From a virus, in IMG/VR virus record IMGVR_UViG_3300027704_000085, positions 1 to 32,949 of that record: a stretch of 32,949 nt of DNA; one strand, 5' to 3'. The position numbers were made by a program, and so were the translations under genes. Shown here piece by piece: positions 9,601 to 31,970 of this stretch. Each line of letters opens with the position of its first letter. Position 1 is the first letter of the stretch. The notes below the pieces were generated by a model. The model searched no databases. It was not told the origin of the DNA and saw only the letters and a list, made by a program, of their open reading frames with translations.

Positions 9601-12279
9601 TCTTTAGGTTTGGACAGCGGTATTAATTTGTTTTACTACGACGAAATGGAAGGACTCAACTTTCCAGTTGAAGTTAAAGAAGTGTTCCGAAGGCAGTTTA
9701 GTGACGGCTCAGCAGCTGCAGTAGTGCAGTTTAGGGGCAAGAGATACATAGCGTTAAAACTGCAGACAGGTAAGAAAGACAACGCGTATCAACAGGCAAA
9801 ACAAATATTTGCGCTCGGTCATGAGATAGGTCATATCGTGATGTGGGATATGTGGAAGTCTCTTCCAAAGGCCCAGCAAGATAGACTTTGGAAACAGTTC
9901 AGTAAAGAACGGCTGGTTAAAAAAGCAGGTTCTTATACTTACACAGACGACACCGCTGGTTTTGAAGAATGGTTTGCTGACCAAGTAAGCGCATGGGCTA
10001 AAAAACAATCAGAAAAACCTAGTGATTTTTCTGGAGCGTTCTTTAAAAAAGTAGCAAAACAGATTACTCAGATCTTTAACCGTTCACGACAGTTTGTAAG
10101 ACAGCAGCTGGAAGAGGGGCAAAGTGCAGCGAGCCGATCCGCATTACGGGATACAAAAGAACGCGCCACTTTGAATGAAACCTTTGAACAGTTTCTGGAT
10201 GAAGTTGCTGGTAAAAAACCAGATGGGTCAGTTAATTTTGTTCTGGTCGGTGGTCCTGAGTTTGTTAGTCAAACTACAAGGCAGAGCACTCCCCGCAACC
10301 GAAAACAAGCTGTTGCGGAAAATAAAACTAAGGTTCCAGACTACAAAGAGTTTTCTAAAGACCCTATCGCGTTGGCTATTGCTAATCTAATTGATTCAAA
10401 AGCGGTGGCCAAACTTACTGAACTATTTAGCCAAATGTGGGGAAGCGATATTGTCTCCCAGATGTTAAAGGTAACATTGTCTGCCGACCAGTACGCACGT
10501 ACTAGGTTAGGTAAAAACGGCCCTGCGTTTGCCAACCTCTTTTACAAACGTAGCCAAGAAGCAGGGCAGGATGGTGATATGCTAAATAAGCAGAATCACG
10601 CGATGGATAAATGGAACGCTCAGTACGGTGAAATAATTGGAGAGGATGAAGCTCTTTCAGCGAAAGTCCTTGAAGAAATGCAAGCTGGTGTTCCCATACA
10701 AGAATCAGTCGACCCTAAAATGCGCCAAGAACTAGCAAGTTTTTTCGAGCGTTTCCATAAGGATTATCTTCAAAAAAGAATACCTAAAATTGGCTTTATC
10801 CAAAACTATTTTCCAGTTGTCTACAACACGGTTGCGATGGCCGAAAACCCACAGGCAATGCTCGATGAACTAGAAAAGGCAGGTCTAACAAAAGGCGAAG
10901 CAAAAAAAGTGTTTTCAAAAATAATGCAGAACGAAGGTGCGTTTGTAGATCAAATGCCTATACCAGATTCTGAATTAGCAGGTGCTAAGTTCGATGCAAA
11001 GCTACAACGCACATTAAAAAACATGGATAAAAAAGCGATGCAGGAACTGGGGTTTTATAAGACCCCGGCTATTGCAGTGCAGTCGTATTTAAAGCAAGCA
11101 ACTAAACACGCCGAATACAGTGTAGTAGAAGCGAGAGCAGCGGCGTTAATAGAGCAAATGAACCCGCAGCAAAAAACCCAAGCTAGAAAAATAGTAATGA
11201 GTTACATGGGGCAGTTGGGTGCAGACATAAATCCAAAATGGAATAAATTCCAGTCATACATTGCAGCATTACAGTTTGCCACAACATTACTTTTTGCCAC
11301 AGTGGCATCACTTACTGATGCGGGTAATCCAATTATCCGAGCAAAGGATATGGATGGGTTCAAGAGCGCGATGAAAGCGTGGCGTGGTTATATAAGTAAG
11401 CAGTCACGGGAAGAGCAAATTGCATTTGCTGAGCGTATTGGTGCAGCGGGACGCGCAGCAGTGCAAGACGCGTTGATTGCATCTTACAGTTCTGACTTTA
11501 TGGACGCAGGTGCACGTAGGTGGTCGGACAAATACTTTACAGCAATTGGCCTCGAAAGTTGGACCCGTATGACGCGAGTTATTTCAGCGAACATGGCTAG
11601 AGACTTTATTAGAACTCATGGCGCAAAAGCGGCTGCAGGTGATAAACGTAGCTTGCGCTATCTTGACGAACTTGGCCTAACGCCAGAAATGGTCGCTAAA
11701 GGTTTTGATGTTGAAAATGACTCAGTTAACCTAACAACACCTGAAGGTCTTGCTGTGCAAGATGCTATTTTAAGTTTTGTTGATGAGGCTATTATTCGAC
11801 CTAACCCAGCGCACCGACCTGTTTGGGCAAGTGACCCACACTACATGTTGATCTGGCAGTTAAAAAGTTTCTTCTACTCGTTTGGGCAGGTTGTTGTCGG
11901 CGGCGTTGTTCGAGAAGCAAAGGCACGTTGGAAAGAGGGCGATAAGGTGGGCGCTATGATGTCGGCTGGTTTGTTGTTTGGCGCACTTATGCCACTAGCA
12001 GCACTTGCTCTCCAGGTTCGTGAATTAATTAAAGGCGTGCTGGGCAAAAATGTGGGTAACGAAGACGAAGGAATTCTAGCTTACTTGTTCGACTTAATGG
12101 ATCGTTCTGGAATATTAGGCCCATTATCTATTATAAAAGCTATGTTTGACGCTGGAGATTATGGACGTAGTGCAACTGTTTCTTTGCTTGGCCCGACGGC
12201 TGGAACTATTGAAACTTACTTTACCCGAGACACTTATAACTTAGCAAAACGGCTAACTCCCGTTTACTCTCAGTTATAA
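6616..12279 (+). CDS. Giant ejection protein (gp16-like) with embedded HEXXH zinc-peptidase motif
   Basis: This encodes 1887 residues. The N terminus has a short coiled coil (1-50), Gly/Ala-rich hydrophobic stretches at about 156-190 and 274-294, then a long charged, probably disordered region (about 400-930) and a Lys-Pro repeat linker (AKPKVEAGAKPKVQKKAKPK, near 940-960). A compact domain at about 975-1165 carries H1069-E1070-I-G-H1073, followed by FEEWFAD at 1116-1122, where E1118 would be the third zinc ligand: a gluzincin-type peptidase signature. The C-terminal 600 residues resemble the LPD38-type ending of giant phage polyvalent or ejection proteins (HRPVWASDPHYMLIWQLKSF at about 1733) and include a hydrophobic segment at about 1781-1802. 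T7 gp16 instead carries a transglycosylase. The protein probably enters the cell with DNA; the peptidase could clear a path through the envelope or cut virion or host proteins. Activity is inferred. Confidence 0.8.
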   Translation: MASLAELETLSEQLRGQIEEADSGLSDELKGLEDQSASLQIDIDQGTSVTPTGLSPAAAGRAAGWKGLGSSYYTFRAAGNYLIGDKEDAARDLKTAGQLDNQAGRIGQHLVKFEDFVTDVSESYKGIGENKEAVDLLSEFGELTAYTANQAIPSALDSLAWTLGGFVAGGLTTGGAGAAPGAVGGLVAKGQIKRAVTKAVKAYAKGEGTPEGDMVARDAIKKMAAEKARSKFGVAGAKKAGKAGALTSGYIQGTASSFDESMESDIEKKDAAELAFAMGVPFAVMDYLPELAFYKSVKGLIKGSHIKKGSYLRNLTGGVAKAGGVQGLKELGAEAGQEGLMIAQRFIQDPNYDIKSATMRMSQAAFSGFVAGKSLGGTSKLAGNLAGQVRDTAGSVKDILAGRRSEAGTEVSLRESPPVNGPTPLLEGPNDGTRSAGMATMDGENLSALEQAKQRAKQTAQLSPENIAQTPLVDLLAAIPTDEDGKPIAPDVNTDANAAAATQELNRRADEMGPNKYFVLVRQAQKKLAGKPKLEDDGKTEIDREIFNDPLEQASTLPEAGATEQRTPQGELEEQPPGYEARLIGKNKKGTSVVEGDGYKINGNGVKKRMANLQEENPGMQYRIVQLDGLAYIEEVVESSFDVSDIVNDGVKKAVAGVQRKGVDRTLPATDPQGKETTLAPIELTKAGERANNKDKANASSMTYPQLLMSGFLRMNQELADRGFKIDLDNLPDTTVIATANGKSYTWLDLKKVWADRKTTEDGSAFDGEDGRAQRLIKIEEKIKNLQAFIEGLDDPDGVVGLEALQMLSDALGNYETLVAEGDAKADASLETDTTVMGENQSKSDANKNRILDEDGKPIIYSNKRGTKPKVNIPQSIDNRRKDSKDRAEDQKPMAMLRSQKRQEAKSKADQKKAKAARATVNKATKPEPKPQAEKKPLKNPKPKVEAGAKPKVQKKAKPKVEAKTQTGERTSKNGTTAWGSIPDVFQNYIDAITKSLGLDSGINLFYYDEMEGLNFPVEVKEVFRRQFSDGSAAAVVQFRGKRYIALKLQTGKKDNAYQQAKQIFALGHEIGHIVMWDMWKSLPKAQQDRLWKQFSKERLVKKAGSYTYTDDTAGFEEWFADQVSAWAKKQSEKPSDFSGAFFKKVAKQITQIFNRSRQFVRQQLEEGQSAASRSALRDTKERATLNETFEQFLDEVAGKKPDGSVNFVLVGGPEFVSQTTRQSTPRNRKQAVAENKTKVPDYKEFSKDPIALAIANLIDSKAVAKLTELFSQMWGSDIVSQMLKVTLSADQYARTRLGKNGPAFANLFYKRSQEAGQDGDMLNKQNHAMDKWNAQYGEIIGEDEALSAKVLEEMQAGVPIQESVDPKMRQELASFFERFHKDYLQKRIPKIGFIQNYFPVVYNTVAMAENPQAMLDELEKAGLTKGEAKKVFSKIMQNEGAFVDQMPIPDSELAGAKFDAKLQRTLKNMDKKAMQELGFYKTPAIAVQSYLKQATKHAEYSVVEARAAALIEQMNPQQKTQARKIVMSYMGQLGADINPKWNKFQSYIAALQFATTLLFATVASLTDAGNPIIRAKDMDGFKSAMKAWRGYISKQSREEQIAFAERIGAAGRAAVQDALIASYSSDFMDAGARRWSDKYFTAIGLESWTRMTRVISANMARDFIRTHGAKAAAGDKRSLRYLDELGLTPEMVAKGFDVENDSVNLTTPEGLAVQDAILSFVDEAIIRPNPAHRPVWASDPHYMLIWQLKSFFYSFGQVVVGGVVREAKARWKEGDKVGAMMSAGLLFGALMPLAALALQVRELIKGVLGKNVGNEDEGILAYLFDLMDRSGILGPLSIIKAMFDAGDYGRSATVSLLGPTAGTIETYFTRDTYNLAKRLTPVYSQL

Positions 12280-12291
12280 GCACAGCTTATA
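12275..12291. promoter_or_regulatory. Palindrome TATAAGC-ACA-GCTTATA, copy 1 (candidate operator)
   Basis: A perfect 7-bp inverted repeat around a 3-base spacer, starting at the stop codon of the giant ejection gene. It opens the 72-bp gap (12280-12351) before the receptor-binding region. AT-rich sequence with TATAAT at 12290-12295 and TATACT at 12301-12306 follows and could supply a -10 box, but no good -35 box is visible. Three near-identical copies and one weaker one lie in other gaps. Confidence 0.7.
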
Positions 12292-12351
12292 TAATAATGA
12301 TATACTGTTACGGCATGTCAATGCTGAGAATAACCCTTACATGAGGTAAAA

Positions 12352-12726
12352 ATGGCGTTTTACGAAACTATAAACTTAGTTAAAGGCGATACGTTGCCTG
12401 AACTAAATCTAACACTCCGCGATTCTAATACAGCCGCTGCAGGTTATACCCTGGATCTTGATAATTCATTGACGTGGGCTCCAATCGATTTAACTGGTTC
12501 TACAGTTGTCCTCAAGTTTAAAGCACTAGGCTCTAACACTGTCAAAGCGACAGTGTCTATGTCCCAACATTCCCCTTCAACAGATGGCAAAGTCTTTATG
12601 CAATGGCCTGTTGGTGCGCTTGATACAGCGGGAACTTTTACAGGGGAAGTTGAAGTTACTAATAGTTCCGGCGGCATACAAACAGTTTTTGATCAGTTGA
12701 AATTTAAGGTACGTGGCGACTACTAA
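12352..12726 (+). CDS. Baseplate/tail domain protein, BppU N-terminal-like
   Basis: This encodes 124 residues with ribosome site GAGG at 12343-12346. It starts FYETINLVKGDTLPELNLTL and continues with a beta-strand pattern (PIDLTGSTVVLKFKALGS, then GTFTGEVEVTNSSGGIQTVF). The layout is like the N-terminal domain of BppU-type baseplate upper proteins, a beta-sandwich that anchors receptor-binding proteins to the tail. Here it is a stand-alone domain. It is the first gene after the operator-like palindrome and overlaps the next gene by one base (TAATG). Family recall is moderate. Confidence 0.7.
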   Translation: MAFYETINLVKGDTLPELNLTLRDSNTAAAGYTLDLDNSLTWAPIDLTGSTVVLKFKALGSNTVKATVSMSQHSPSTDGKVFMQWPVGALDTAGTFTGEVEVTNSSGGIQTVFDQLKFKVRGDY

Positions 12727-13325
12727 TGGCTATTCATTTACAACAAAATGTAGCAAAAGCTGAGCTTGCTGAACGTATATATAAACGAATGGAAGCAGCA
12801 GGCATTTTCACTGATGCCTCCCCGAAAAACAGAGTGCTGGCGGATATTTTTAATGCCATAGAAACTGTATCGCTCGCTATGAATCGGGGGGTAGCTGATA
12901 GCATTAGTGCAAACGATGCTTCTTCAATAGACCTAAGCAGGCCAGTAGCAGATACGTTTAGCGTTTCTGAGACACTTACCAAAACAGTCGCGCAAATTCT
13001 CAACGACAATGTTTCTCACCAAGAAATTACCACGTTTCTTTTAGCTCAGAACAAATCAGACAGTATAAGTTTGTCAGAAGATCTTGGTTGGTCCGTGCAA
13101 ACCGGGAAAAGCGACACTGTCTCCAACAGCGACACTCTTTCAGTACAGGCTTTTTATTTTAGAACGTTGTCTGACACTGTGAGCGTTGGCGAACAAATCG
13201 GCATGAACACCCCAAATTATTATAACGACAGTCTGAGCGTAACTGACGTCGCAACAATTATTCACCGTCGCGGCGGTTCCGCAATTTTAAACTTCTCTCA
13301 ATTAAACCAGACCACTTTAGGCTAG
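12726..13325 (+). CDS. Tail protein with seven 18-residue D-S-hydrophobic-S repeats
   Basis: This encodes 199 residues. After a helical N terminus (1-50) the protein has seven copies of a pattern (A/S/N)-D-(S/T/N)-hydrophobic-S-x-x-(D/E), with the key Asp at 58, 76, 94, 112, 130, 150 and 168. The spacing is exactly 18 residues except for one of 20. Examples are SDSISLSED, SDTVSNSDT and NDSLSVTDV. This looks like a repeat fold such as a solenoid or an elongated beta-rod, perhaps with metal-binding Asp/Ser turns. It lies between two tail genes and overlaps the upstream one by a base, so a virion role is likely. No family recognised. Confidence 0.7.
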   Translation: MAIHLQQNVAKAELAERIYKRMEAAGIFTDASPKNRVLADIFNAIETVSLAMNRGVADSISANDASSIDLSRPVADTFSVSETLTKTVAQILNDNVSHQEITTFLLAQNKSDSISLSEDLGWSVQTGKSDTVSNSDTLSVQAFYFRTLSDTVSVGEQIGMNTPNYYNDSLSVTDVATIIHRRGGSAILNFSQLNQTTLG

Positions 13326-13335
13326 GAGCAACACT

Positions 13336-13764
13336 ATGCTACATGATTCAATAAAAGTAAAAGGGGCGCTTTCTATCTCGAAGAATGGCGTTGTAGTTCA
13401 AGAAATTAACAACCTTGTTGTTGACGCAGGTAAGGCATTAATTGCTTCGCGTTTACAAGGTGGCGGCAGCGCAGTTACCTACATGGGTGTAGGAACAGGG
13501 GCTACAGCAGCGGCAGCGGCCAATACTGCATTAGTGACTGAACTTGACCGTAATGCATTAACTGTAAGTGGTGGCACATTGGACGGTACGAAAGTTACGT
13601 TTGCTGCTACATGGGCAGCGGGTGATGGCACAGGCGCATTAACAGAAGCTGGTTTATTTACTGCAAATGCCGGTGGAACTATGTTGGCGCGCACAGTATT
13701 TGCAGTAGTCAACAAGGGTGCGTCAGACGTAATTACGATCACCTGGGACATTACTATTCTGTAA
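13336..13764 (+). CDS. Tail-associated beta-rich structural protein
   Basis: This encodes 142 residues with ribosome site TAGGAG at 13324-13329. The sequence runs as beta strands separated by Gly/Ala-rich turns (AVTYMGVGTGATAAAAANTA) and ends with TEAGLFTANAGGTMLARTVF followed by a strand (DVITITWDITIL). I recall similar short proteins in the tail gene clusters of marine phages, but no Pfam name. It lies in a tight run of tail genes (10 bases after the repeat protein, 13 before the next), so a role in the tail or fibre base is inferred. Confidence 0.7.
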   Translation: MLHDSIKVKGALSISKNGVVVQEINNLVVDAGKALIASRLQGGGSAVTYMGVGTGATAAAAANTALVTELDRNALTVSGGTLDGTKVTFAATWAAGDGTGALTEAGLFTANAGGTMLARTVFAVVNKGASDVITITWDITIL

Positions 13765-13777
13765 ATAGGGAATCGAC

Positions 13778-14629
13778 ATGTCAATTAAGTATTCTAACAA
13801 TGCGGCAACTACAGTTGCTACGTCTTTTAGTAACAGTGCAACCGCTCTAGTTGTAGCTGATGCATCCGAGTTCCCTACCCTTACTGGTAGTGACGAGCTG
13901 CGCATCACACTGTCTGATGTGACAAATACTGTATTTGAGATTGTGACTTGTACAGCGATTGCAGGAACTACTTTAACTGTCGTTCGCGCTCAAGAAAACA
14001 CAACAGCAGCAGCATGGGCAATTGGCACTGATGTGTCACTGCGTATTACTGCGGCAGGTTTAGAAGCAAAAGCAGACAAGACCCAGGTTCTTACAAATGT
14101 TCCTGCTGGGGCTTTGTTTACTGACACTAACACTGTTTACAGCTTACCTACTCAGGCCTCTAACGCTAACAAGTTTTTAAAGACCGACGGAAGCAACGAG
14201 AGTTGGGCTGTGGTAGAAGCGCTGCCAAGCCAATCGGGCAATACAGGTAAGTTCTTAACGACTGATGGAAGTGCTGCAACTTGGGCAACACAAGGAGCCA
14301 ACGGCACCGCTGAACGCACAGTGTTTACTGCAACCGCAGGACAAACATCGTTTGCAGTAACTTACACATCGGGTTTTGTAGACGTGTATTTAAACGGTAT
14401 AAAACTGCAGATCGCAATAGATTTTACTGGCACTTCAGGGTCAGCGGTTGTCTTAGCTGTCGGTGCGTTGGTCGGTGATATTGTGGATGTTGTTGCTTAC
14501 GGTACGTTTACTTTAGCGAACCATTACACAAAAACTCAAACAGATAATTTAATTAGATTTGAAATAGATGGGGGAGTCTCTAACTCTACTTATTTAGCAA
14601 CTCAATTAGTAGACGGAGGAACAGCATAA
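13778..14629 (+). CDS. Tail fibre-like protein
   Basis: This encodes 283 residues with ribosome site AGGGAA at 13767-13772. N-terminal 90 residues form a beta-rich domain ending in SLRITAAGLEAKADKTQV. Then come two repeats of the form NKFLKTDGSNESWAVV and GKFLTTDGSAATWATQ, a motif common in shafts of phage fibres. These are followed by a domain (about 180-245) with VFTATAGQTSFAVTYTSGFV and VDVYLNGIKL, also found in tail fibres of marine phages. It ends in a one-base overlap with the next fibre gene. The arrangement suggests an anchor plus short shaft for the distal fibres encoded downstream. Confidence 0.75.
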   Translation: MSIKYSNNAATTVATSFSNSATALVVADASEFPTLTGSDELRITLSDVTNTVFEIVTCTAIAGTTLTVVRAQENTTAAAWAIGTDVSLRITAAGLEAKADKTQVLTNVPAGALFTDTNTVYSLPTQASNANKFLKTDGSNESWAVVEALPSQSGNTGKFLTTDGSAATWATQGANGTAERTVFTATAGQTSFAVTYTSGFVDVYLNGIKLQIAIDFTGTSGSAVVLAVGALVGDIVDVVAYGTFTLANHYTKTQTDNLIRFEIDGGVSNSTYLATQLVDGGTA

Positions 14630-15603
14630 TGGCTAGCATTATTCAAATTCGTAGGGACACCGCTTCAGATTGGACAAGCGCAAATCCTACATTAGCTCAA
14701 GGCGAATTGGCCCTAGAGACAGACACACTAAAATTAAAAGCCGGAGATGGCACAACCGCTTGGACTTCGCTGGCTTACTACACACTAGGCTCAGTAGGAT
14801 TCCTAGCCTCCACAGGTGGGGCACTCACAGGAGCATTAACGACTAACTCTACTATAGACGGTCGTGATGTAGCCGCTGATGGTGTATTGGCGACTAATGC
14901 CATGCCTAAAGCAGGTGGTGCTTTTACAGGAGCCGTAACAACTAACTCTACTATAGATGGAAGAGATGTAGCAGCTGATGGTGTACTAGCAACTAACGCA
15001 TTACCTAAAGCTGGGGGGGCCATGACAGGCCCGATAACGACTAACTCCACTTTCGATGGGGTGGATATTGCTACCCGCGACGGAATCCTTACGTCTACTA
15101 CTGCAACCGCTAACGCTGCTTTACCAAAGGCAGGAGGCGCACTTACAGGCCCGATAACGACTAACTCAACCTTTGATGGAAGGGATGTGGCGGCAGACGG
15201 AGTACTAGCTACTAATGCATTACCAAAGGCTGGCGGTACAGTCACAGGGTTAATCAATCACTCTGACCAGATACTACAGCGTACAGTTTTGAAAGATTAT
15301 GGTGAGACTAAAGTTGCTATGTCGGCTCATGCTGTAGACCTTGAGTTGGGTAACGTATTCACCTACACCCTTTCAGGTGGACAGACAGTAACATTCACTA
15401 ATCCTCCTGCTTCTGGCACTGCTGGCTCATTTACCATGATCGTCACGAATGGTGGTAGTGCTACGCTCACGTGGCCTACATCAGTCGATTGGCCTGCTGC
15501 TACTGCACCAGCACTCACAGCCAGTGGAGTAGACCTTCTATTCTTCACAACCTGTGATGGTGGAACCATTTGGTACGGAACTGCTGTATTGGCTATGGGG
15601 TAG
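14629..15603 (+). CDS. Trimeric tail fibre with Mtd-like N terminus and 33-residue repeats (fibre A)
   Basis: This encodes 324 residues. The N terminus (IIQIRRDTASDWTSANPTLA, then GELALETDTLKLKAGDGTTAW) matches the N-terminal anchor domain seen in major tropism determinant-like and other fibre proteins. Residues 63-200 are four repeats of about 33 residues with LPKAGGALTG and TTNSTFDGRDV, like phage tail-fibre repeats. The C-terminal 120 residues (DQILQRTVLKDYGETKVAMS to the end) form a globular domain nearly the same as the end of the 250-residue fibre at 17797-18549. The next gene, a DUF7483-type protein, begins three bases after the stop. Fibre A is probably the shaft partner of that protein. 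Confidence 0.8.
   Translation: MASIIQIRRDTASDWTSANPTLAQGELALETDTLKLKAGDGTTAWTSLAYYTLGSVGFLASTGGALTGALTTNSTIDGRDVAADGVLATNAMPKAGGAFTGAVTTNSTIDGRDVAADGVLATNALPKAGGAMTGPITTNSTFDGVDIATRDGILTSTTATANAALPKAGGALTGPITTNSTFDGRDVAADGVLATNALPKAGGTVTGLINHSDQILQRTVLKDYGETKVAMSAHAVDLELGNVFTYTLSGGQTVTFTNPPASGTAGSFTMIVTNGGSATLTWPTSVDWPAATAPALTASGVDLLFFTTCDGGTIWYGTAVLAMG
14815..15231 (+). repeat. Four tandem repeats of about 99-120 bp in fibre A
   Basis: Each unit encodes GGAxTGxxTTNSTxDG(R/V)D followed by a linker ending LPKA or MPKA. Units are 33, 33, 40 and 33 residues. Identity in DNA is high enough for copy number to vary by recombination or slippage. A single related unit is present in fibre B at about 18037-18174. 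Confidence 0.85.
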
Positions 15604-15606
15604 AGT

Positions 15607-17538
15607 ATGACTATTGAAAGAAAAGTAGGCATGGGGATTGCTGGTCAATCCAGTGGTGATGGCCCGACTGATGTGGCAGATGTATTTAGTACATTTTTGT
15701 ATACCCCTGCAACAAGTAATTCTAATGTACCAATCGTCAACGGCATTGATCTTGCTGGTGAAGGGGGTATGGTTTGGATCAAACAAAGGGACACCGATCG
15801 GTATCCCGTTATTGTAGATACGGAGCGAGGAGGGAATAAGGTCTTACATCCTCACGAAAATTATGCAGGGTACACGCAAGTTATCGTTCAGAGTTTTAAT
15901 AGTAATGGGTTTACAACAGGCACATCATCATTCGTTAGTGTTGCTGACGAAGATACAGTCGCATGGACATTCCGCAAGAAGGAAAAGTTCTTTGACGTAG
16001 TGACCTATACGGGTAATGGCGCAAATCGGACAATAGCTCATAGTCTAGGTGGCGATGTGGGTATGATGTTTATTAGGCAGACAAACGCCACAAATGATTG
16101 GATTGTATATGTAAAATCGCTAGGTAACGACAAACTTATGTACCTAAATCTTACAAACTCCATAGGTAATGACCCTACTGGTGTGATGTGGAACACAACT
16201 ACGCCAACTAATGACTTATTTTCTATTGGAACACAAGGGGCAGTTAATACTAATGGAGCAACATACGTAGCCTACTTATTCGCTGACAACTCCTCTGAAG
16301 ATGCAGAAGATCAGATGATCAAGTGTGGCAGCTATACGGGCAATGGAACAGTAGGGCGAACTTTAGATTTGGGTTGGGAGCCTCAGTTTATATTATTAAA
16401 ACGAACAGACTCAGCAGACAATTGGTTTATATTCGACACCACAAGGGAGCAAACTACAGGTATATCTGCATACATACGAAATTTAAGACATGAAGAAGGC
16501 AGAGGTTTTTATTATATTCCACCAAATCCAACTGGAATTACGTTTAATGCTGCAAATGGTGGAGCTTTTAATACTAATAATGCTAAGTACATGTACATGG
16601 CAATTCGTGCGCCTATGATGGTCAAGCCAGAAGCGGCTACTGATGTGTTTAGTGTTAAATCTTACACAGGAAATGGCGCTACTCAAACATTAGATGCTGC
16701 ATTCGGGCCTGTTGATATGGCTATAGTAAAAAATAAAGAATCTGGTGTTGGCATGCAACCTGATATAACAACTAGATTAACCCATGCTGAATTATATACT
16801 GATTCCTCTACTGAGGAAGGTTCACGTAATTTTGTAACGTTTGATAGCAATAGTTTAGTACTTCCAGCACAAAATAATTCAAATACTTCTAACATACCTT
16901 TTTCGCTTTTTTCATGGAAACGGGCAAAAGGCTATATGGACTGCGTTGCTTATTCTGGTACTGGTTCTGCTAGGACACAAACACATTCGCTTGGTGTTGT
17001 TCCAGAAATGATTTGGGTAAAGAGTAGGGCTAACTCTAAGAATTGGGCAGTATATCATCCGTCAAGTCATGCCGCTGGAAATACACTTTTTCTTAATTTA
17101 GATAATGGTGGCTCTGGTGTTGGTGGTTTTCAATCAACCGCTGTGAGTGACACCACATTTAATGTAGACACTGCTGAAGAGACAAATAGTAGTGGTTGGA
17201 CTTACGTAGCTTACCTCTTCGCAACACTGGCTGGCATATCTAAGGTCGGCAGCTACACTGGCAACGGCTATAACCAAACTATTAACTGTGGGTTTTCAGC
17301 AGGTGCTAGGTTCATTCTAATCAAGCGTATTGGAGCTACGGGTGATTGGTACTTATGGGATTCTGCTAGAGGAATTGTTGCAGGTAACGACCCACATTTT
17401 AGTTTAAACACTGATGCAGAACAAATAACCTCAAACGATTCAATAGACCCTGCAAACTCAGGATTTATTGTGAATCAAGTATCTGCAACTAACATCAACG
17501 TGTCTAGCGGCACTTACATCTTTTACGCAATCGCATAG
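15607..17538 (+). CDS. DUF7483-type tail/receptor-binding protein, paralogue 1
   Basis: This encodes 643 residues beginning MTIERKVG. After an N-terminal anchor (ADVFSTFLYTP, then NGIDLAGEGGMVWIKQRD) there are about five beta-rich repeats of 90-110 residues. Each opens with a form of SYTGNG or YSGTG and continues (H)(S/N)LG...PxMxxxK.....NW.vy, for example VVTYTGNGANRTIAHSLGG and VGSYTGNGYNQTINCGFSAG. I recall this repeat as DUF7483, common in tail proteins of marine phages and perhaps lectin-like. Two paralogues follow at 18553 and 20457; the scaffold is almost the same while surface segments differ. It follows fibre A after three bases, with the 78-residue gene next. Role as a receptor- or glycan-binding tail protein is inferred. 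Confidence 0.8.
   Translation: MTIERKVGMGIAGQSSGDGPTDVADVFSTFLYTPATSNSNVPIVNGIDLAGEGGMVWIKQRDTDRYPVIVDTERGGNKVLHPHENYAGYTQVIVQSFNSNGFTTGTSSFVSVADEDTVAWTFRKKEKFFDVVTYTGNGANRTIAHSLGGDVGMMFIRQTNATNDWIVYVKSLGNDKLMYLNLTNSIGNDPTGVMWNTTTPTNDLFSIGTQGAVNTNGATYVAYLFADNSSEDAEDQMIKCGSYTGNGTVGRTLDLGWEPQFILLKRTDSADNWFIFDTTREQTTGISAYIRNLRHEEGRGFYYIPPNPTGITFNAANGGAFNTNNAKYMYMAIRAPMMVKPEAATDVFSVKSYTGNGATQTLDAAFGPVDMAIVKNKESGVGMQPDITTRLTHAELYTDSSTEEGSRNFVTFDSNSLVLPAQNNSNTSNIPFSLFSWKRAKGYMDCVAYSGTGSARTQTHSLGVVPEMIWVKSRANSKNWAVYHPSSHAAGNTLFLNLDNGGSGVGGFQSTAVSDTTFNVDTAEETNSSGWTYVAYLFATLAGISKVGSYTGNGYNQTINCGFSAGARFILIKRIGATGDWYLWDSARGIVAGNDPHFSLNTDAEQITSNDSIDPANSGFIVNQVSATNINVSSGTYIFYAIA
16915..16958 (+). repeat. 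44-bp direct repeat shared by DUF7483 paralogues 1 and 3 (copy 1)
   Basis: This stretch is identical to 21735-21778 and encodes WKRAKGYMDCVAYSG. The matching part of paralogue 2 (about 19822-19865) starts the same but differs in the middle. Repeats like this could support recombination between paralogues. Confidence 0.85.
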
Positions 17539-17549
17539 GGAGGAACATC

Positions 17550-17786
17550 ATGAGTAAAGCAAGAGACTTTGTTGAAAACAATAGAGGTGTAACCTCAAAC
17601 ATACAAACACAATTAACAAGCGGTGGTGCTATAGCTAGTAAAGTTATATCCGCCAACACTACAGTTGCTGGAGATTCCCGATTTGAAACGGGTAATGATC
17701 TTGATATAGCAGCAGCAGCAACTTTAGAAGTACCCTTAACTAGCCTAATAGAAGTTAAGTTATTCGGCACAATTAAACAACTTTGA
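17550..17786 (+). CDS. Small tail-fibre-associated protein
   Basis: This encodes 78 residues with a strong ribosome site (GGGAGG at 17538-17543). It begins MSKARDFVENNRGVTSNI, a type of start I recall from short marine phage fibre proteins. A beta-rich segment with a Gly turn follows (GDSRFETGNDLDIAAAATLE). It sits between the first DUF7483 gene and fibre B, 10 bases from the latter. It may be a detached N-terminal anchor of fibre B, which lacks the Mtd-like N terminus of fibre A. Function is not known. Confidence 0.7.
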   Translation: MSKARDFVENNRGVTSNIQTQLTSGGAIASKVISANTTVAGDSRFETGNDLDIAAAATLEVPLTSLIEVKLFGTIKQL

Positions 17787-17796
17787 GGAAAATACA

Positions 17797-18549
17797 ATGC
17801 CTTTAAAACTTTTAACAACTAATGGCTCCATTACCTTAACCGCAGAAGATGGTTCTGGTAATGTATCTGCAACTCTTCCACGGGCTGGCTTCCTAGCAGC
17901 TAATGGAGTAACTAATGCCAACTTTACTGGCGCAGACCTAGAGATAGGCAAAGGAGGCACAGGTGCTTCCAGCGCAGGTGCAGCACGAACTAACCTAGAT
18001 GTAGACCAGGCAGGTACTAATTTACCTAAGTCTGGTGGGGCCATGACAGGTGCTATCACTACCAACTCTACCTTTGATGGAGTAGACATTGCAGTACGGG
18101 ATGCAGTATTAACATCTACGACTACTACTGCAGGAAATGCTAATACCCTTGCAGCAGCAGCTTTACCTAAAGCTGGTGGCACTATGTCTGGATTAGTCAA
18201 TATGGCTGATCAAATTGTACAGCGTCCAGTGTTAAAAGACTACGCAGAAACCAAAGTAGCTATGGCTGCACACGCAGTTGACCTTGAGCTAGGCAATGTA
18301 TTTACATACACATTATCTGGTGGGCAGACGCTTACCTTTACTAATCCAGCAGCTAGTGGCACAGCCTGTAGCTTCAGCCTTATTATAACTAATGGTGGTT
18401 CAGCTACTCTCACGTACCCATCAAGTGTTGATTGGGCAGCAGCAACAGCCCCTACGCTAACAGCGTCAGGCATTGACATACTTACGTTTACTACTATTGA
18501 TGGTGGCACGATCTGGTATGGAATAGTTTCTGGCTTGGCAATGGGGTAG
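17797..18549 (+). CDS. Trimeric tail fibre, shorter paralogue of fibre A (fibre B)
   Basis: This encodes 250 residues with ribosome site GAGGAA at 17785-17790. It starts MPLKLLTTNGSITLTAEDGS and lacks the Mtd-like N terminus of fibre A. Residues about 80-130 hold one copy of the fibre repeat (LPKSGGAMTGAITTNSTFDG) and LPKAGGTMSG. The last 120 residues (DQIVQRPVLKDYAETKVAMA to the end) align closely with the end of fibre A, including the final GTIWYG motif. As with fibre A, a DUF7483 gene starts three bases after the stop, with the same GGGGTAGAGTATG junction. It is therefore the second half of a duplicated fibre/DUF7483 cassette with a different anchor. Confidence 0.8.
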   Translation: MPLKLLTTNGSITLTAEDGSGNVSATLPRAGFLAANGVTNANFTGADLEIGKGGTGASSAGAARTNLDVDQAGTNLPKSGGAMTGAITTNSTFDGVDIAVRDAVLTSTTTTAGNANTLAAAALPKAGGTMSGLVNMADQIVQRPVLKDYAETKVAMAAHAVDLELGNVFTYTLSGGQTLTFTNPAASGTACSFSLIITNGGSATLTYPSSVDWAAATAPTLTASGIDILTFTTIDGGTIWYGIVSGLAMG

Positions 18550-18552
18550 AGT

Positions 18553-20445: not shown

Positions 20446-20456
20446 GGAGGCATATA

Positions 20457-22361: not shown

Positions 22362-22382
22362 ACAACATAGGAAAAATCAACT

Positions 22383-22871: not shown

Positions 22872-22883
22872 GCCTAGCTTATA
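22867..22883. promoter_or_regulatory. Palindrome TATAAGC-CTA-GCTTATA, copy 2 (candidate operator)
   Basis: A perfect 7-bp inverted repeat with a 3-base spacer, in the 25-bp gap before the 92-residue gene. As in copy 1, the stop codon of the previous gene is the TAA at positions 3-5 of the motif. The GAGG ribosome site of the next gene follows at 22886. Confidence 0.7.
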
Positions 22884-22896
22884 AAAAGAGGTAGCT

Positions 22897-23175: not shown

Positions 23176-23184
23176 GGGGTAATC

Positions 23185-23328: not shown

Positions 23329-23331
23329 ATT

Positions 23332-23439
23332 ATGGTAGTAAAAAAGAAAGTCCCCAAAAAAATGCATGTAATGCCTAACGGCAAACTCATGAAAAACTCA
23401 GCCATGCCTAAGAAGAAGAAGGCAAAAAAAAGTTATTAG
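23332..23439 (+). CDS. Tiny Lys/Met-rich protein of 35 residues
   Basis: Starts MVVKKKVPKKMHVMPNGKLM and continues KNSAMPKKKKAKKSY. It has a good ribosome site (GAGGAA at 23319-23324) and follows the 47-residue gene after three bases. About 40 per cent of the residues are Lys, with several Met. Similar MPNGK...K-rich miniproteins are, as I recall, frequent in marine phages beside the 47-residue type. Function unknown. Confidence 0.65.
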   Translation: MVVKKKVPKKMHVMPNGKLMKNSAMPKKKKAKKSY

Positions 23440-23449
23440 AGTGTAATTA

Positions 23450-23632
23450 ATGTGGTCTAGCCCTTTAGAATTATACCCAGTGCATGTGTCTCCGACTCTT
23501 GCACCTGAAGGGCAAAGACCATTAATTGAACCTACTACACACACAGTAAATGCAGAATATCTTGTGGTGCAGCCGTCGAGGGAGCCCTATGGGATTCCCC
23601 AAGAATACACACGGAGATTATGGATATGCTAG
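23450..23632 (+). CDS. Hypothetical 60-residue protein
   Basis: Starts MWSSPLELYPVHVSPTLAPE and ends QEYTRRLWIC. It fills the gap between two better-supported genes and overlaps the next start by a few bases. The composition is ordinary (Pro-rich, balanced charge). There is no convincing ribosome site, only a weak GAG at 23439-23441. I think it more likely real than not; no family recognised. Confidence 0.55.
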   Translation: MWSSPLELYPVHVSPTLAPEGQRPLIEPTTHTVNAEYLVVQPSREPYGIPQEYTRRLWIC

Positions 23633-24048
23633 CAGAATTAATGGTTGCGAATGCAGCCTTTGCAGTTATCAAAAAAACGCTAGCTAATGGCAAAGAGATA
23701 GCGGACGCTGGCTCTGCGCTCACCAAATATTTTGGGGCAAGCCAGGCGATTGAACAGAAAGTTAAAACTGGTAATGGCGATGTGTTGGGCGCTTACCAAG
23801 CGAAGCAAGCTATAGAGCGACAGGAAAAAGAGCTAGAGTTTATGCTGAACAAACAAGGGTTGCTAGGCTACTACAAGTACTGCCAATTCCGTGATGACTT
23901 TTATAAAAAGCAGAAATCAGCGGCTAAGAAACATAAGGTTAAAGTTAATCAACGTAAAGAAAAATGGGCAACAGGTCTGTTAGTAACAATTATAATTGTG
24001 GTGATGATACTAGGGGTTCTTTTTGGTGTAGCCATTTATACGAGGTAA
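23626..24048 (+). CDS. Membrane-anchored protein with helical N terminus, near lysis genes
   Basis: This encodes 140 residues if started at ATG 23626. GGAGA at 23613-23617 lies 8 bases before this ATG but only 2 before the alternative ATG at 23620, so I prefer the second. The N-terminal half is helical (VANAAFAVIKKTLANGKEIA), and a charged region with YKKQKSAAKKHKVKVNQRKE follows. One clear membrane segment lies near the C terminus (LLVTIIIVVMILGVLFGVAI). I recall proteins of this outline in marine short-tailed phages, annotated as hypothetical. No lipobox is visible, so it is not an evident outer spanin. It may be part of lysis or the virion. Confidence 0.75.
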   Translation: MLAELMVANAAFAVIKKTLANGKEIADAGSALTKYFGASQAIEQKVKTGNGDVLGAYQAKQAIERQEKELEFMLNKQGLLGYYKYCQFRDDFYKKQKSAAKKHKVKVNQRKEKWATGLLVTIIIVVMILGVLFGVAIYTR

Positions 24049-24051
24049 CAC

Positions 24052-24498
24052 ATGGGTATTTTAAGTTTTTTAAATCCTATTGCAAGCTTAGGTAAAACTT
24101 ACCTAGAAGGTAAGAACCATGTCGCCAAGGCTAAAACTGCAGCTGCTATAATAAGTTTAGAAGCCGACGCAGATGTTAAGGTAGCTGGTGCTAAAGCTGC
24201 ACATAAGCTAGCGGACAACGGACAGACACAAGAATATAACCTGGACCTTGTAGCTATGCAGGCAATGGACAAGTCTTTTTTAGATGAGATTATGATTGCG
24301 CTACTGCTGGTGCCTATTGCAGCGTCGTTCTTAGGTTACCAAGCTGAAGTCACAGCTGCTTTTGAATCCTTTGCCTCAATGCCTGATTGGTATCAATACT
24401 TAGTACTTGGCGTTTACATTGTTAAATTTGGTATGCGCGGTTTATTGACTAAGCTAGTGTCTGGCAGGCTGGGCGTCCTAAACGCGAAAACTCCTTAG
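24052..24498 (+). CDS. Holin-like membrane protein
   Basis: This encodes 148 residues with ribosome site GAGGT at 24040-24044, four bases after the previous gene. An Ala/Lys-rich amphipathic N-terminal half (KAKTAAAIISLEADADVKVA) is followed by KSFLDEIMIALLLVPIAASF, a likely membrane segment, and a second hydrophobic stretch ending WYQYLVLGVYIVKFGMRGLL. The pattern K.F.DE...LLLLP......P.WY.Y.L resembles three-segment holins of the gene-transfer-agent type. With the XhlA-like and M15 endolysin genes downstream it forms a lysis cassette. It would control when the endolysin crosses the inner membrane. Confidence 0.7.
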   Translation: MGILSFLNPIASLGKTYLEGKNHVAKAKTAAAIISLEADADVKVAGAKAAHKLADNGQTQEYNLDLVAMQAMDKSFLDEIMIALLLVPIAASFLGYQAEVTAAFESFASMPDWYQYLVLGVYIVKFGMRGLLTKLVSGRLGVLNAKTP

Positions 24499-24511
24499 CT
24501 TTAATATATAA

Positions 24512-24528
24512 TATAAGCTGTGCTAATA
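24512..24528. promoter_or_regulatory. Palindrome TATAAGC-TGT-GCTAATA, copy 3 (candidate operator)
   Basis: Same as copies 1 and 2 except one base in the right half (GCTAATA instead of GCTTATA). The matching half-site read on the other strand is TATTAGC, which is also the variant half of copy 4. It occupies the 43-bp gap before the XhlA-like and endolysin genes. AT-rich sequence (ATATATAATATAAG) runs into its left side and could hold a -10 box. Confidence 0.65.
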
Positions 24529-24541
24529 TATTGGGATTGAC

Positions 24542-24763
24542 ATGTCAGATTTAGAAAAACGTATGACCAAAGCTGAGTACGTTCTTGAAGCCCAAGCAGA
24601 GCAGATTGAAGAGCTTGAAGAAGCCTTTAAGGGGCTTAGCACAACTCTTAATGGTATAGAAAAACTTCTAGCCCAGATTAAATGGATCGCAGTTGGCGCA
24701 TTACTTGTCGTTGCCGTTAGCGATCATACTTTTAGTGCAACCTTAATGAAGCTACTATCATGA
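24542..24763 (+). CDS. XhlA-like small membrane protein
   Basis: This encodes 73 residues. A coiled-coil-like N-terminal part (ALEAQ-type heptads, visible as VLEAQAEQIEELEEAFKGLS) is followed by one membrane segment (IKWIAVGALLVVAVSD). This coil-plus-TM layout is that of XhlA-type haemolysin or holin partner proteins. The stop overlaps the start of the endolysin gene (ATGA), so it is translationally coupled to it. It probably helps holin action or membrane disruption. Confidence 0.7.
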   Translation: MSDLEKRMTKAEYVLEAQAEQIEELEEAFKGLSTTLNGIEKLLAQIKWIAVGALLVVAVSDHTFSATLMKLLS

Positions 24764-25134
24764 GCGATTGGAAATATTTTACCGAAGACGAGTTAAAATG
24801 CAGCCATTCTGGAAAGTGTCTGATGGACCCTGGCTTTATGATTACGCTTGAAGCCATCCGTATTAAATGTGATTTCCCTTTCACAATAACCTCTGCATAC
24901 CGTGACCCTACCCACCCTATAGAAGCTAAGAAAGCAAAGCCTGGAACACATGCCAGTGGTCGTGCTGTTGATATAGCTGTGCGCGGTGACAAAGCTATTA
25001 AATTAATAAAGGTAGCTTTTGAGTTCGGCATTACAGGGCTCGGTGTTCAGCAAAAAGGTGGCGGTCGATTTATACATCTTGACGACCTAACAATTGATGA
25101 TGGGTTTGCACGACCAAATATTTGGAGTTACTAA
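24760..25134 (+). CDS. Endolysin, peptidase M15-like
   Basis: This encodes 124 residues. The start (WKYFTEDELKCSHSGKC) and the segment ITSAYRDPTHP match the M15A/M15_3 family. The zinc ligands are visible as H64 and D71 in HASGRAVD and H106 in FIHLD, giving the family's H...D...H set. The enzyme cuts peptide links in peptidoglycan, here to lyse the host at the end of infection. No signal peptide is seen, so export should depend on the holin-like protein upstream. It overlaps the XhlA-like gene by four bases and the next gene by one. Confidence 0.85.
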   Translation: MSDWKYFTEDELKCSHSGKCLMDPGFMITLEAIRIKCDFPFTITSAYRDPTHPIEAKKAKPGTHASGRAVDIAVRGDKAIKLIKVAFEFGITGLGVQQKGGGRFIHLDDLTIDDGFARPNIWSY

Positions 25135-29962: not shown

Positions 29963-29963
29963 T

Positions 29964-30173: not shown

Positions 30174-30186
30174 ATAGGGCTTAAAA

Positions 30187-30380
30187 ATTGCTGCGGGAAT
30201 TGCTGCGGAATTGACCTTAAACTACCCGTATTTACCCGCAGCAATGGTCTTAGCATTGGGTTAAGTCATTGAAATATAAGCTTATTTAGTAGGTATTAAA
30301 AAGATCGAGTCTCTCCGTCCGCACCATTTAAGTACTTGATTTACAAGAATTTTATTTTCAAAGCTGCGGAATTGCTGCGA
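30187..30380. other. attP: attP region with five arm-type sites around a tRNA-derived core
   Basis: The 227-bp gap between the convergent late and integrase genes has no gene. It holds five copies of an ATTGCTGCGG-like motif: direct at 30187-30196 and 30199-30208, inverted at 30236-30245, and direct at 30360-30369 (8 of 10) and 30371-30380 (9 of 10). Pairs are 12 and 11 bp apart, near one helical turn. The core lies between the two groups. This is the layout expected for a tyrosine integrase with an N-terminal arm-binding domain. The motif assignment is inference from layout. Confidence 0.75.
30305..30326 (+). other. attP core: 3' end of a tRNA gene (probably tRNA-Leu)
   Basis: The 22 bases read as the end of a tRNA: TCGAGT of the T-loop, CTCTC of the T-stem, CGTCCGC of the acceptor 3' strand, then A and CCA. 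There is no matching GCGGACG 5' acceptor strand nearby, so it is a fragment and not a tRNA gene. Leu is my best guess because I recall GCGGACG-starting tRNA-Leu (UAG) genes with this ending in marine gammaproteobacteria. The host locus would be restored by the identical segment on integration. Confidence 0.75.
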
Positions 30381-30400
30381 AAAACAGCTATTTTATGTAC

Positions 30401-31576
30401 CTATTTCGATAAAAACTCTTTGTAAGCCGCTTCCATTTTTGATCCATGTTTGACCCCAGTATTTTTAATAAATCGTGCGTAATACTTTAGCGTAGTCGAA
30501 CTGTCAGCATGTCCCATTTGTTTTGCAATATAGGTAAGCTCTTCACCCGCATTTAACATCTGCGATGCGTAAGTGTGTCTGGTTTGATAAGGTATTCTGT
30601 AGCGAACCCCTGCTTTCTTTAATGCTTGTTTCCACTGCGCTCGTATTTTATTAGTCGTACTCCAAGGCTGGCTAGTGAGCGGATTCATAAACACAATGTC
30701 ATTTGGCTCTACTCCTTTGAGGAAGGAATACTCTTTGTACGCTCTTAGACATTGGATTGCAGGGCCAACTAAATCAATTGTTCTATAAGAGGCTTGTGAT
30801 TTAGGCGGCTGAAATTTATTGGGACTTGCATCAACGATGACCTGATCGATTAGAACAGTGCAGCCAATGAAATCGACACGGCTCCAGCATAACCCTCGAA
30901 TCTCTTCTGGTCGCATTCCCGTAAAGAACTGGAACATTAGCTGCAATCCAAGTTGTTTAGAGGCGGCTCCAATAATAGCTTCTCGTTCTTCCCAAGAGAA
31001 AGGGTCAATTCGCGTGGCTTCAGATTTGATAACCACTGTTTGTTTTTTGAGTTTCTTACCTAATAGGGGATTCACAGAGATAATCCCTTCTTCTACCGCT
31101 GCGTTAAGTACGTCGCGTAGCACGGCAATTCGTTGAGTGCGTGTCGAGGGGAGCACTTGCATGGCTAATGCCCAATCTTTTACCATAGGCCATGTTAGAT
31201 TGACCACTTTAGTTTTTGCTAAAGAAGATTTCTTAACTTGGCCCTCGATGATTCGTTTATAAAAGGTGTAAGTGCCTGGTCCAATACTGTAATGACTGTT
31301 CAGCCAGTGTTTTAGGAAAGTATAGACCTGTCGCTTGTTGACGAATAACGCGGCTCTTTTAGAATTTGGGAAGGTAGCGGCGTAATCAAAGGAGCCATTC
31401 TTAATGGCATCTTTGATTTGCGAGAGGTGTACAAAACACCGTTCTAAATTAGCGGGGGTGGGCTCAAGTTCAATGCGCTCGCGTTGTTCTGTTTTGGAGT
31501 CTGGGTAGTAAAATCGTACTTCGATTGAACTTTTAGACGCTTTTGCGACCCCCTTGTACGTTTTTGGTCTACCCAT
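30401..31576 (-). CDS. int: Tyrosine integrase with arm-binding N terminus
   Basis: This encodes 391 residues from ATG 31576 with ribosome site GGAGG 8 bases upstream. Residues 1-75 match the arm DNA-binding DUF3596 type (SSIEVRFYYPDSKTEQRERI). The core-binding part runs about 80-175, followed by the catalytic domain. Visible catalytic residues are R222 (TGMRPEEIRG), K259 (PPKSQASYRT), R333 in YQTRHTYAS, H356 (GHADSST) and nucleophile Y366 (YYARFI; Y365 is the alternative). The first His of the usual H-x-x-R box is Tyr (Y330), a change seen in many phage integrases. It lies directly beside attP and overlaps the excisionase gene by 133 bases. It should catalyse site-specific integration at a tRNA gene. 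Confidence 0.92.
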   Translation of the reverse strand: MGRPKTYKGVAKASKSSIEVRFYYPDSKTEQRERIELEPTPANLERCFVHLSQIKDAIKNGSFDYAATFPNSKRAALFVNKRQVYTFLKHWLNSHYSIGPGTYTFYKRIIEGQVKKSSLAKTKVVNLTWPMVKDWALAMQVLPSTRTQRIAVLRDVLNAAVEEGIISVNPLLGKKLKKQTVVIKSEATRIDPFSWEEREAIIGAASKQLGLQLMFQFFTGMRPEEIRGLCWSRVDFIGCTVLIDQVIVDASPNKFQPPKSQASYRTIDLVGPAIQCLRAYKEYSFLKGVEPNDIVFMNPLTSQPWSTTNKIRAQWKQALKKAGVRYRIPYQTRHTYASQMLNAGEELTYIAKQMGHADSSTTLKYYARFIKNTGVKHGSKMEAAYKEFLSK

Positions 31577-31740
31577 GCTTCGTATCCTCCGAGGCTAATC
31601 AATATCCTATTGTCGGGTGCTCTAGAGAATACTTCATTCTCTTGCCACACACCTTCACTTATTTTAGAACGTATGGCTATTTCTGTATAGCCTGATAATT
31701 CTGAAAACTTACTAATCGTTACTCTATCTAGCATCTTCAT
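31444..31740 (-). CDS. xis: Excisionase-like protein
   Basis: This encodes 98 residues from ATG 31740 (MKMLDRV...; ATG 31734 is the alternative; a longer frame from 31785 overlaps the DUF3310 gene more). Residues 4-56 read DRVTISKFSELSGYTEIAIR and then KISEGVW...APDNRILISLGGYEAWV. This is the winged-helix excisionase pattern (IRxKIxxGxW...PDGRIxIxxxxYxxW) of the DUF1233 type. The C-terminal tail is basic and low in structure. It binds attP/attR DNA and steers integrase to excision. The last 133 bases overlap the start of int in another frame, and the start overlaps the end of the DUF3310 gene, so the three genes are tightly linked. Confidence 0.75.
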   Translation of the reverse strand: MKMLDRVTISKFSELSGYTEIAIRSKISEGVWQENEVFSRAPDNRILISLGGYEAWVDQKRTRGSQKRLKVQSKYDFTTQTPKQNNASALNLSPPPLI

Positions 31741-31951
31741 ATGATTCAACCAATTTATTGAGATACCACGCTGCCTTTTTGGCATCCTCTGCGGTGTCCC
31801 ATTTCTCCCTCCATAGGTATTTAATTACGGTCGCTCTGCAATGGGCCCGGAATCCTTCCGGTCCTAGTGCAGCGCGTATGGCGTCAATGCATTGCATTCC
31901 TGTATCGGATTGATAGTGCATTGGTTGTTTAACCATATCGTGTTCTTTCAT
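31724..31951 (-). CDS. DUF3310 protein
   Basis: This encodes 75 residues from ATG 31951. It has the DUF3310 signature: HYQSDTGMQCIDAIRAALG, then FRAHCRATVIKYLWREKWDT and an ending with KAAWYLNKLVE. DUF3310 is a short helical domain found in many phages and at the end of T7 gp1.7, a nucleotide kinase; the function of the stand-alone form is not known. It sits first in an operon with xis and int, an unusual place. Copy 4 of the palindrome lies 3-19 bases upstream of the start, and its AGGG, read on this strand, could be the ribosome site. Repressor binding here would silence DUF3310, xis and int together. Confidence 0.85.
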   Translation of the reverse strand: MKEHDMVKQPMHYQSDTGMQCIDAIRAALGPEGFRAHCRATVIKYLWREKWDTAEDAKKAAWYLNKLVESYEDAR

Positions 31952-31953
31952 GT

Positions 31954-31970
31954 TATTAGCCCTGCTTATA
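31954..31970. promoter_or_regulatory. Palindrome TATTAGC-CCT-GCTTATA, copy 4 (candidate operator)
   Basis: Same design as copies 1-3 with one base changed in the left half (TATTAGC), the same variant half as in copy 3. It lies just before the DUF3310 start on the minus strand, in the 38-bp gap between two lysogeny genes, and is the copy closest to the repressor gene. Confidence 0.7.

Follow-up and report, generated by a model that had tools for sequence, protein, structure and literature searches.

The CI repressor of phage lambda acts at operators that are confined to OR and OL, and the late and lysis genes of lambda are controlled through Q and not directly by CI. A dispersed arrangement of repressor sites is already documented for a few phages, namely P1, phiC31, L5 and SPbeta, and conserved intergenic inverted repeats are present in phiC31. 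Here we analyze IMGVR_UViG_3300027704_000085, a virus record of 32,949 bases (the whole stretch is called the window in the following), with respect to a recurring 17-bp palindrome, TATWAGC-N3-GCTWATA, and a lambda-CI-like repressor of 225 amino acids encoded on the minus strand (32193–32870, phrog_4) that we propose as its binder. We consider it probable that the palindromes are dispersed operators of a genome-wide lysogeny switch to which this repressor binds. The network of sites and its conservation, the position of the sites with respect to promoter-like elements, and the way in which they co-occur and co-vary with the repressor were observed directly and are presented below.

P1 has 22 dispersed asymmetric 17-bp operators through which the C1 repressor represses lytic genes (PMC8546580). 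Like P1, the system proposed here would employ one repressor at many 17-bp operators throughout the genome, but the P1 operator is asymmetric, whereas here a symmetric palindrome is combined with a lambda-CI-like protein. For L5, two sources report more than 20 asymmetric 13-mers, acting as operators and stoperators and located in promoters and short intergenic spaces, a repressor predicted to bind as a monomer, and transcription of the repressor gene along with its neighbours without a divergent pair (PMC9283540, PMC4557955). The latter arrangement is shared by the window, but the sites are symmetric, which implies a dimer unlike the L5 monomer, and promoter placement is seen for a good part of the copies; asymmetric, transcription-oriented sites of the L5 type were not found. 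One of these sources gives 18–30 dispersed repressor sites for phiC31 and L5 together, with the repressor not in a divergent pair (PMC4557955). Multiple repressor sites across the genome are hence a feature in common with phiC31, which is unlike the window phage in being a Streptomyces phage, with a host of another phylum, and in possessing a repressor with three isoforms. The SPbeta repeated element SPBRE was found in silico, and chromatin affinity purification sequencing (ChAP-seq) later showed binding of MrpR at promoter regions (PMC10516654). The repeated intergenic element is similar here, but MrpR has a tyrosine-recombinase-like fold and a 15-bp motif. Lambda itself shares a homologous DNA-binding domain and 17-bp operators: its annotated OR sites are 17 bp long and spaced 23–24 bp, compared to 25 bp for pairs here, and OR1 and OR3 have a half-site starting with TAT, but the operators of the present system are spread over the genome. 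Overall, the present system has its dispersed layout in common with P1, L5, phiC31 and SPbeta, and resembles lambda in its protein and the length of its site. A search of the literature on dispersed or stoperator-type repressor sites, marine temperate podoviruses and Motiliproteus prophages retrieved, among the entries listed, no report of such a system in these phages, most subscription papers being outside this search. In podovirus-like temperate phages, one of which resides in a cultured gammaproteobacterium, the dispersed design is here probably combined with a repressor of the lambda CI type, and the proposed control would, unlike that of lambda, include late and lysis genes.

Scanning the window for TATWAGC-N3-GCTWATA yielded four exact matches, at 12275, 22867, 24512 and 31954, and 0 for the reversed-pattern control, while 20 random sequences from a first-order Markov model contained a mean of 0.0 exact matches and 0.1 with at most one mismatch. 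This bears out the four copies claimed in a preliminary description of this DNA, including their variants: those at 12275 and 22867 are symmetric, and those at 24512 and 31954 each combine one TATAAGC arm with one TATTAGC arm. Among 300 permuted half-sites, only TATAAGC itself was found as an exact N3 palindrome in the window (twice), the rest giving 0. A blind search for repeated palindromes left the window alone unremarkable (2 copies versus a random maximum of 1–2), whereas its relatives do stand out. When up to three mismatches were allowed, 12 matches were obtained versus 6.6 expected (standard deviation 2.5), a number reached by 2 of 100 shuffles. Since the four exact copies make up most of this excess, a weaker copy at 29202 and a half-site at 30275, both previously counted as members of the network, carry no weight; with three mismatches each they are at chance level and were rejected.

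All four copies lie mostly in noncoding positions. Copy 1 (12275–12291, plus strand, TATAAGC-ACA-GCTTATA) sits on the stop codon of the gene for a 1887-residue virion protein (6616–12279), with the next open reading frame (ORF, start 12352) 60 nt downstream. At the same position, the palindrome is exact in the related contigs G001, G003, G005, G008 and G009, and has one mismatch in G002 and two in G006. Copy 2 (22867–22883, plus strand, TATAAGC-CTA-GCTTATA) is located on the stop codon of the tail assembly chaperone gene (22383–22871), 13 nt ahead of an ORF at 22897–23175, and is present too in the loci L085 and L087. It is preceded by a -35-like TTGGCC (22856–22861, plus strand), which begins 11 nt upstream and leaves a 17-nt spacer to the TTATAA of the right arm. 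Copy 3 (24512–24528, plus strand, TATAAGC-TGT-GCTAATA) lies 13 nt ahead of a small ORF (24542) preceding the M15 endolysin gene, and its right arm can be read as a -10 element, TAATAT; flank similarity points to likely counterparts at 6801 of G006 and 53768 of G008. Copy 4 (31954–31970, minus strand, TATAAGC-AGG-GCTAATA) is placed 2 nt before the start codon of the DUF3310 gene (31724–31951, minus strand, PF11753), the first gene after it, and separates the repressor operon from the DUF3310-int block. The positions agree with the earlier account, in which one copy precedes the DUF3310-int block and further copies occupy gaps of the late region. That copies lie in gaps between genes is correct in the strict sense for 24512 and 31954, but not for 12275 and 22867, which overlap the stop codons of the upstream ORFs.

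Conservation in relatives supports the view that the copies form one network. Among the capsid loci of close relatives (83–100% identity), 24 of 27 carry a copy upstream of the capsid gene, and the remaining three begin just 112–159 bases ahead of this gene. Many copies of the one short element per genome are present in the two longest relatives: G006 (63.7 kb) and G008 (61.3 kb) each have 9 exact copies and 16 with at most one mismatch (random means for the window, G006 and G008: 0 exact, 0.05–0.1 with at most one mismatch); up to two mismatches are found in 20 and 18 sites, respectively, compared to 0 and 3 for the reversed control. The blind palindrome search ranked the TATAAGC motif top in G006, G008 and G032. 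In a scan of viral contigs for TATAAGC-N3-GCTTATA, one or two matches per contig carry little weight. The copies are located chiefly in gaps or promoters: 12 of 16 in G006, 9 of 16 in G008, 10 of 14 in G032 and 4 of 7 in G010 are mostly noncoding, with noncoding positions making up just 3–9% (a range that includes the window). Copies are thus neither equally common inside genes, given the strong noncoding enrichment in the window and its relatives, nor absent from related phages. The statement that no good copy lies inside a gene holds for the window, but not for the relatives, in which 4 of 16 (G006), 7 of 16 (G008), 4 of 14 (G032) and 3 of 7 (G010) fall within automatically called ORFs, some of them over-long or doubtful. 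Copies are present in the minus-strand block with the primase-like and repressor genes and in the plus-strand block with the capsid and other virion genes.

The sites are particularly regular around the repressor gene. They flank the window-type repressor gene in all 19 loci (several of them near-identical); an exact copy stands at the position of copy 4 in 19 of 19, a pair spaced by 34 bp upstream of the gene likewise in 19 of 19, and a pair spaced by 25 bp further upstream in 15 of 19, three of the other four loci being too short to reach it. The two spacings suggest that the repressor may bind cooperatively and regulate its own synthesis. The upstream operon of the repressor is revealed by L085 (20,434 bases), which extends beyond the repressor gene and whose repressor, integrase, DUF3310 and PhoH proteins are 100% identical to those of the window. 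The repressor gene is co-directional with upstream phrog_35651 and phrog_2402 genes, and a divergent cI/cro pair around an OR was not found. Synonymous conservation of the site pair inside the phrog_35651 gene was unexceptional (0.92 versus 0.73; 22 of 150 windows higher), in a test for which some frames had been extended upstream. As a separate observation, the N3 of copy 4 (31961–31963) reads AGG on the minus strand, and each of the 19 repressor loci has AGG or AGA there; this triplet may at the same time belong to the DUF3310 ribosome-binding site.

The preliminary description had named the product of 32193–32870 as the regulator, and this protein is the best candidate binder of the copies. 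A profile built from 7 relatives found lambda CI as the best relative in the PDB (7jvt, E 2.8e-5; 1lmb, E 1.1e-4), and hhalign aligned the repressor to lambda CI over 164 columns with a probability of 94%. The AlphaFold model is usable for the DNA-binding domain only (mean predicted local distance difference test score, pLDDT, 48.7; block means of 67–87 for residues 21–100; C-terminal domain below 50), and in Foldseek it retrieved the lambda repressor structures 7jvt (2.1e-5) and 1lmb (4.6e-4). The protein hence possesses a lambda-type N-terminal helix-turn-helix domain. The serine of the NSM motif of lambda CI is catalytic. By sequence alignment with hhalign, no serine stands opposite NSM in the C-terminal part of the window repressor, and a Ser-Lys pair for self-cleavage was not recognized there, so prophage induction by self-cleavage looks unlikely. 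Among named phages, the window repressor found one weak match only, to a Rhizobium phage, and the repressor of the relative G020 none. A peptide-pattern scan that compared the repressor alignment with one genome per species found no relative and missed the repressor of Motiliproteus coralliicola that the profile later identified.

A second class of sites varies together with the repressor. Of 48 distant capsid loci, 11 have TATTAG-N5-CTAATA, or a one-base variant of it, at the matching position upstream of the capsid gene (5 of 53 were left out, their upstream stretch being too short). The relatives G020 and G031 each carry 7 exact and 14 one-mismatch sites of this TATTAG class and 0 symmetric TATAAGC sites within one mismatch, and in both the top-ranked palindrome of the blind search is TATTAG-N5-CTAATA (or these sites widened by one base). 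The helix-turn-helix of the CI-like repressor of G020 is homologous to that of the window (E 1.5e-6), with the recognition helix reading QGAISQYL versus QPMF(S/N)QML in the window group; the G031 repressor is 71% identical to that of G020, for which alone the helix was read. Site positions before the capsid gene and around the repressor are thus kept while the half-site and the recognition helix change together, the former from TATAAGC to TATTAG. Across 15 contigs, the density of sites with at most one mismatch is 1.2–4.0 per 10 kb in the 7 with a phrog_4 repressor and 0–1.2 in the 8 without one, of which 7 also lack an integrase match and four (G013, G015, G016 and G018) were counted for the TATTAG class only. 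Since all contigs are possible fragments, absence in any one of them is weak evidence. Two 56-kb relatives, G014 (L272–L274) and G015, have neither a phrog_4 nor a phrog_1 match, yet contain 4 and 3 operator-like TATTAG-class copies; they look as if derived from temperate ancestors.

The placement of the sites relative to promoter-like elements suggests how the repressor could act. On at least one strand, 23 of 79 non-redundant sites have a TTG that starts exactly 11 nt ahead of the palindrome, compared to 0–6 for 26 other offsets; by class, these are 7 of 34 in class A, 14 of 26 in class B and 2 of 19 in the M. coralliicola stretch described below. At this offset, the TTG would start a -35 hexamer lying 17 nt from the TWATAN of the right arm and place the spacer and the -10 element under the operator, so a bound repressor should exclude the polymerase. 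For class B, the distant set, which includes contigs without a repressor match (G011, G014 and G026), the TTGACA score at 10–12 nt exceeded that of shuffled flanks, with at least four of six positions matching at 12 of 26 sites (shuffle mean 6.2; 4 of 500 shuffles reach this number). The variant arm CTAATA yields a better -10 element (TAATAT) and lies downstream in 20 of the 26 cases from six contigs that could be scored: of the 34 asymmetric sites, 20 agree with gene direction, 6 disagree and 8 are unclear. This asymmetry is only a hint, because orthologous sites were recounted and three disagreeing type A cases concern doubtful antisense ORFs; the de-duplicated listing of 16 sites was read by eye. 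Near-identical contexts were removed at differing cut-offs, leaving 39, 31 or 34 type A sites, the 34-site set having one extra contig, and sites near contig ends (40 bases left, 57 right) are uncounted in the context and asymmetry counts. We propose that each 17-bp site is bound by a repressor dimer whose two helix-turn-helix motifs each contact one TATAAGC half. For a good part of the copies, the proposed position is in the interval from the -35 to the -10 element of a sigma70-type promoter, covering the -10, and the bound repressor would block host RNA polymerase at early, late, lysis and integration promoters together, the early or late status of the genes being one that we infer from gene content.

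Several observations weigh against this reading. The window has 1.2–1.5 sites per 10 kb (4 or 5 sites), close to the repressor-free fragments G026 (3 sites, 1.2 per 10 kb) and G011 (4 sites, 1.0); it is itself largely a late-region fragment. Repressor type and phage lineage co-vary, so other co-inherited proteins remain conceivable as binders. With respect to promoters, 56 of the 79 sites have no TTG at 11 nt, the TTG signal in the M. coralliicola stretch is weak, and the arm asymmetry there agrees with gene direction at one site, disagrees at three and is unclear at three. The type A sites reach a TTGACA score of at least four of six at 12 of 31, which is not clearly more than in shuffled flanks (shuffle mean 8.0; 45 of 500 shuffles reach this number). 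A consensus promoter scan lists none of the four window sites; beside copy 1 it gives a minus-strand candidate ending 3 bases from the palindrome, at about chance rate. Finally, with the right arm as -10, the copies abutting start codons (22867, 24512 and 31954) would direct transcription to begin around 6 nt ahead of the ATG or, at 31954, beyond it, which makes them a poor promoter fit unless the mRNA is leaderless.

These points lead to the reading originally put forward, true stoperators, in which the repressor would block elongating RNA polymerase from sites between genes, as it does in L5, and few copies lie in promoters. It is the strongest of the rival explanations, albeit an improbable one. 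Copies overlapping stop codons or sitting just before start codons speak in its favour, as do the majority of sites that have no TTG at 11 nt and a copy inside the primase-like gene (phrog_24712, with weaker DNA primase matches). This copy is kept in four contigs (G006, G008, G010 and G032) with a synonymous conservation of 0.91 versus 0.57 (16 of 817 windows higher); it is found at L115 3376 (G006 23376), L118 10435 (G008) and L122 1976 (G010), and none of these three, compared by eye, has a TTG at 11 nt. A TTG at a fixed offset in 23 of 79 sites is, by contrast, expected of promoters and not of roadblocks, and the right arm falls on the -10 element, pointing to promoter operators for a good part of the copies. 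Moreover, L5 sites are asymmetric 13-mers oriented with transcription (PMC9283540), as opposed to the symmetric 17-mers found here. As stated, the stoperator reading is not supported, and promoter occlusion is better supported than a block of elongation. Copies without a visible -35 element, which are the majority, could act as roadblocks, the best candidates being the one in the primase-like gene and the one at 31954.

Binding of an activator or of another phage regulator, such as a MerR-like protein at a spacer dyad, a late activator or Cro, is considerably less probable. MerR-type activators bind a dyad between the -35 and -10 elements, the placement proposed here for a good part of the palindromes, and further DNA-binding candidates exist, namely a weak helix-turn-helix in a 93-residue frame of G008 and a second helix-turn-helix protein in each of G020 and G031. 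Nevertheless, no MerR_1 match above the cut-off was obtained in 7 contigs, the single HTH_3 match in the 64-kb record G006 is the repressor (other helix-turn-helix families were not scanned genome-wide), and copies are found in oppositely transcribed regions.

Such sites are also present in a cultured bacterium. Motiliproteus coralliicola C34 (4.2 Mb) was reached via the capsid search of species genomes, and 17 of its 21 TATTAG-class sites, including all 6 exact ones, are concentrated in one 60-kb stretch, with the copies between 1,362,364 and 1,422,531, compared to 16 genome-wide for the reversed control. With the TATWAGC pattern, a 74-kb stretch has 12 exact and 19 one-mismatch sites, all inside the same 60 kb. 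The genome's sole match to the repressor profile (E 6.9e-10 at an E limit of 0.1) lies in these 60 kb with copies on both sides, and the gene adjoins phrog_2402 and phrog_35651 genes as in L085. On account of this gene and site content, we call the stretch prophage-like. Bacterial regulators typically bind palindromes of this size, and a phage could exploit the binding sites of a host regulator; such an origin is very improbable, as just 4 of the 21 sites, none of them exact, lie outside the 60 kb, a confinement that favours a binder encoded by the phage over a host factor. The genomes of five other cultured hosts with related capsid genes (two Vreelandella, Spirabiliibacterium, Aggregatibacter and Shewanella) gave 0–7 scattered matches and no cluster, with 1–5 for the controls. 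The capsid contig of the gammaproteobacterial metagenome-assembled genome G039 contains two sites with one mismatch at a distance of 6.5 kb; this genome may carry a network of the TATTAG class and was excluded from the clean negatives.

RNA hairpins serving as terminators or processing sites, or hairpin promoters of the type used by the N4 virion RNA polymerase, which a 7-bp stem with a 3-nt loop superficially resembles, are equally hard to credit: unequal arms break one stem pair in 30 of 67 sites, the TATTAG class alters both stem and loop, the window copies are not followed by a T-run, and no RNA polymerase is named among the PHROG and Pfam matches of the window proteins scanned. The terminator scan requires three G-C pairs and could not have listed a stem with two.

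Returning to dispersed operators, it is possible, though as a whole rather doubtful, that the whole family follows one design, in which a dimeric lambda-type repressor at about 16–19 scattered operators directly silences early and late promoters, some conserved intragenic copies act as roadblocks, operator and recognition helix have changed together at least once, and positions such as that before the capsid gene are kept. If true, this would be a natural record of a specificity switch of a whole regulon. With this group it can be asked how about fifteen operators and a single protein jointly change specificity. M. coralliicola C34 offers a testable host for the dispersed-operator design, and immunity groups of metagenomic phages may be recognizable by the motif.

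The window phage is marine and, judged by its genes, temperate and podovirus-like; it is called temperate because a tyrosine integrase gene is present (30401–31576, minus strand, phrog_1, PF00589). The matches of the window genes further comprise capsid and virion genes, tail-fibre genes, the tail assembly chaperone, M15 endolysin, an internal virion protein, PhoH, DUF3310 and the repressor. Named phages related by one structural protein are mostly about 57–63 kb in size, all with less than 60% identity, and include Erwinia PEp14, Burkholderia BcepIL02, Aeromonas phiARM81mr and some Stx-converting phages; a megablast search of 12000–24800 against named phages gave no match. In the virion block, a 730-residue ORF (4421–6613) has no PHROG match and no Pfam match above the cut-off. 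A probable attP stretch at 30184–30382 contains three direct and one inverted copy of ATTGCTGCGG, and the rejected half-site at 30275 falls within this stretch with its own repeats. Amid the repeats, 30307–30326 resembles the 3′ end of a serine tRNA gene; ARAGORN found no whole tRNA. The tail-fibre cluster (14629–22361) contains three large ORFs that share phrog_19943 and phrog_24898 modules in differing order and an Mtd N-terminal domain at 14629–15603, and domain shuffling in the receptor-binding proteins is likely.

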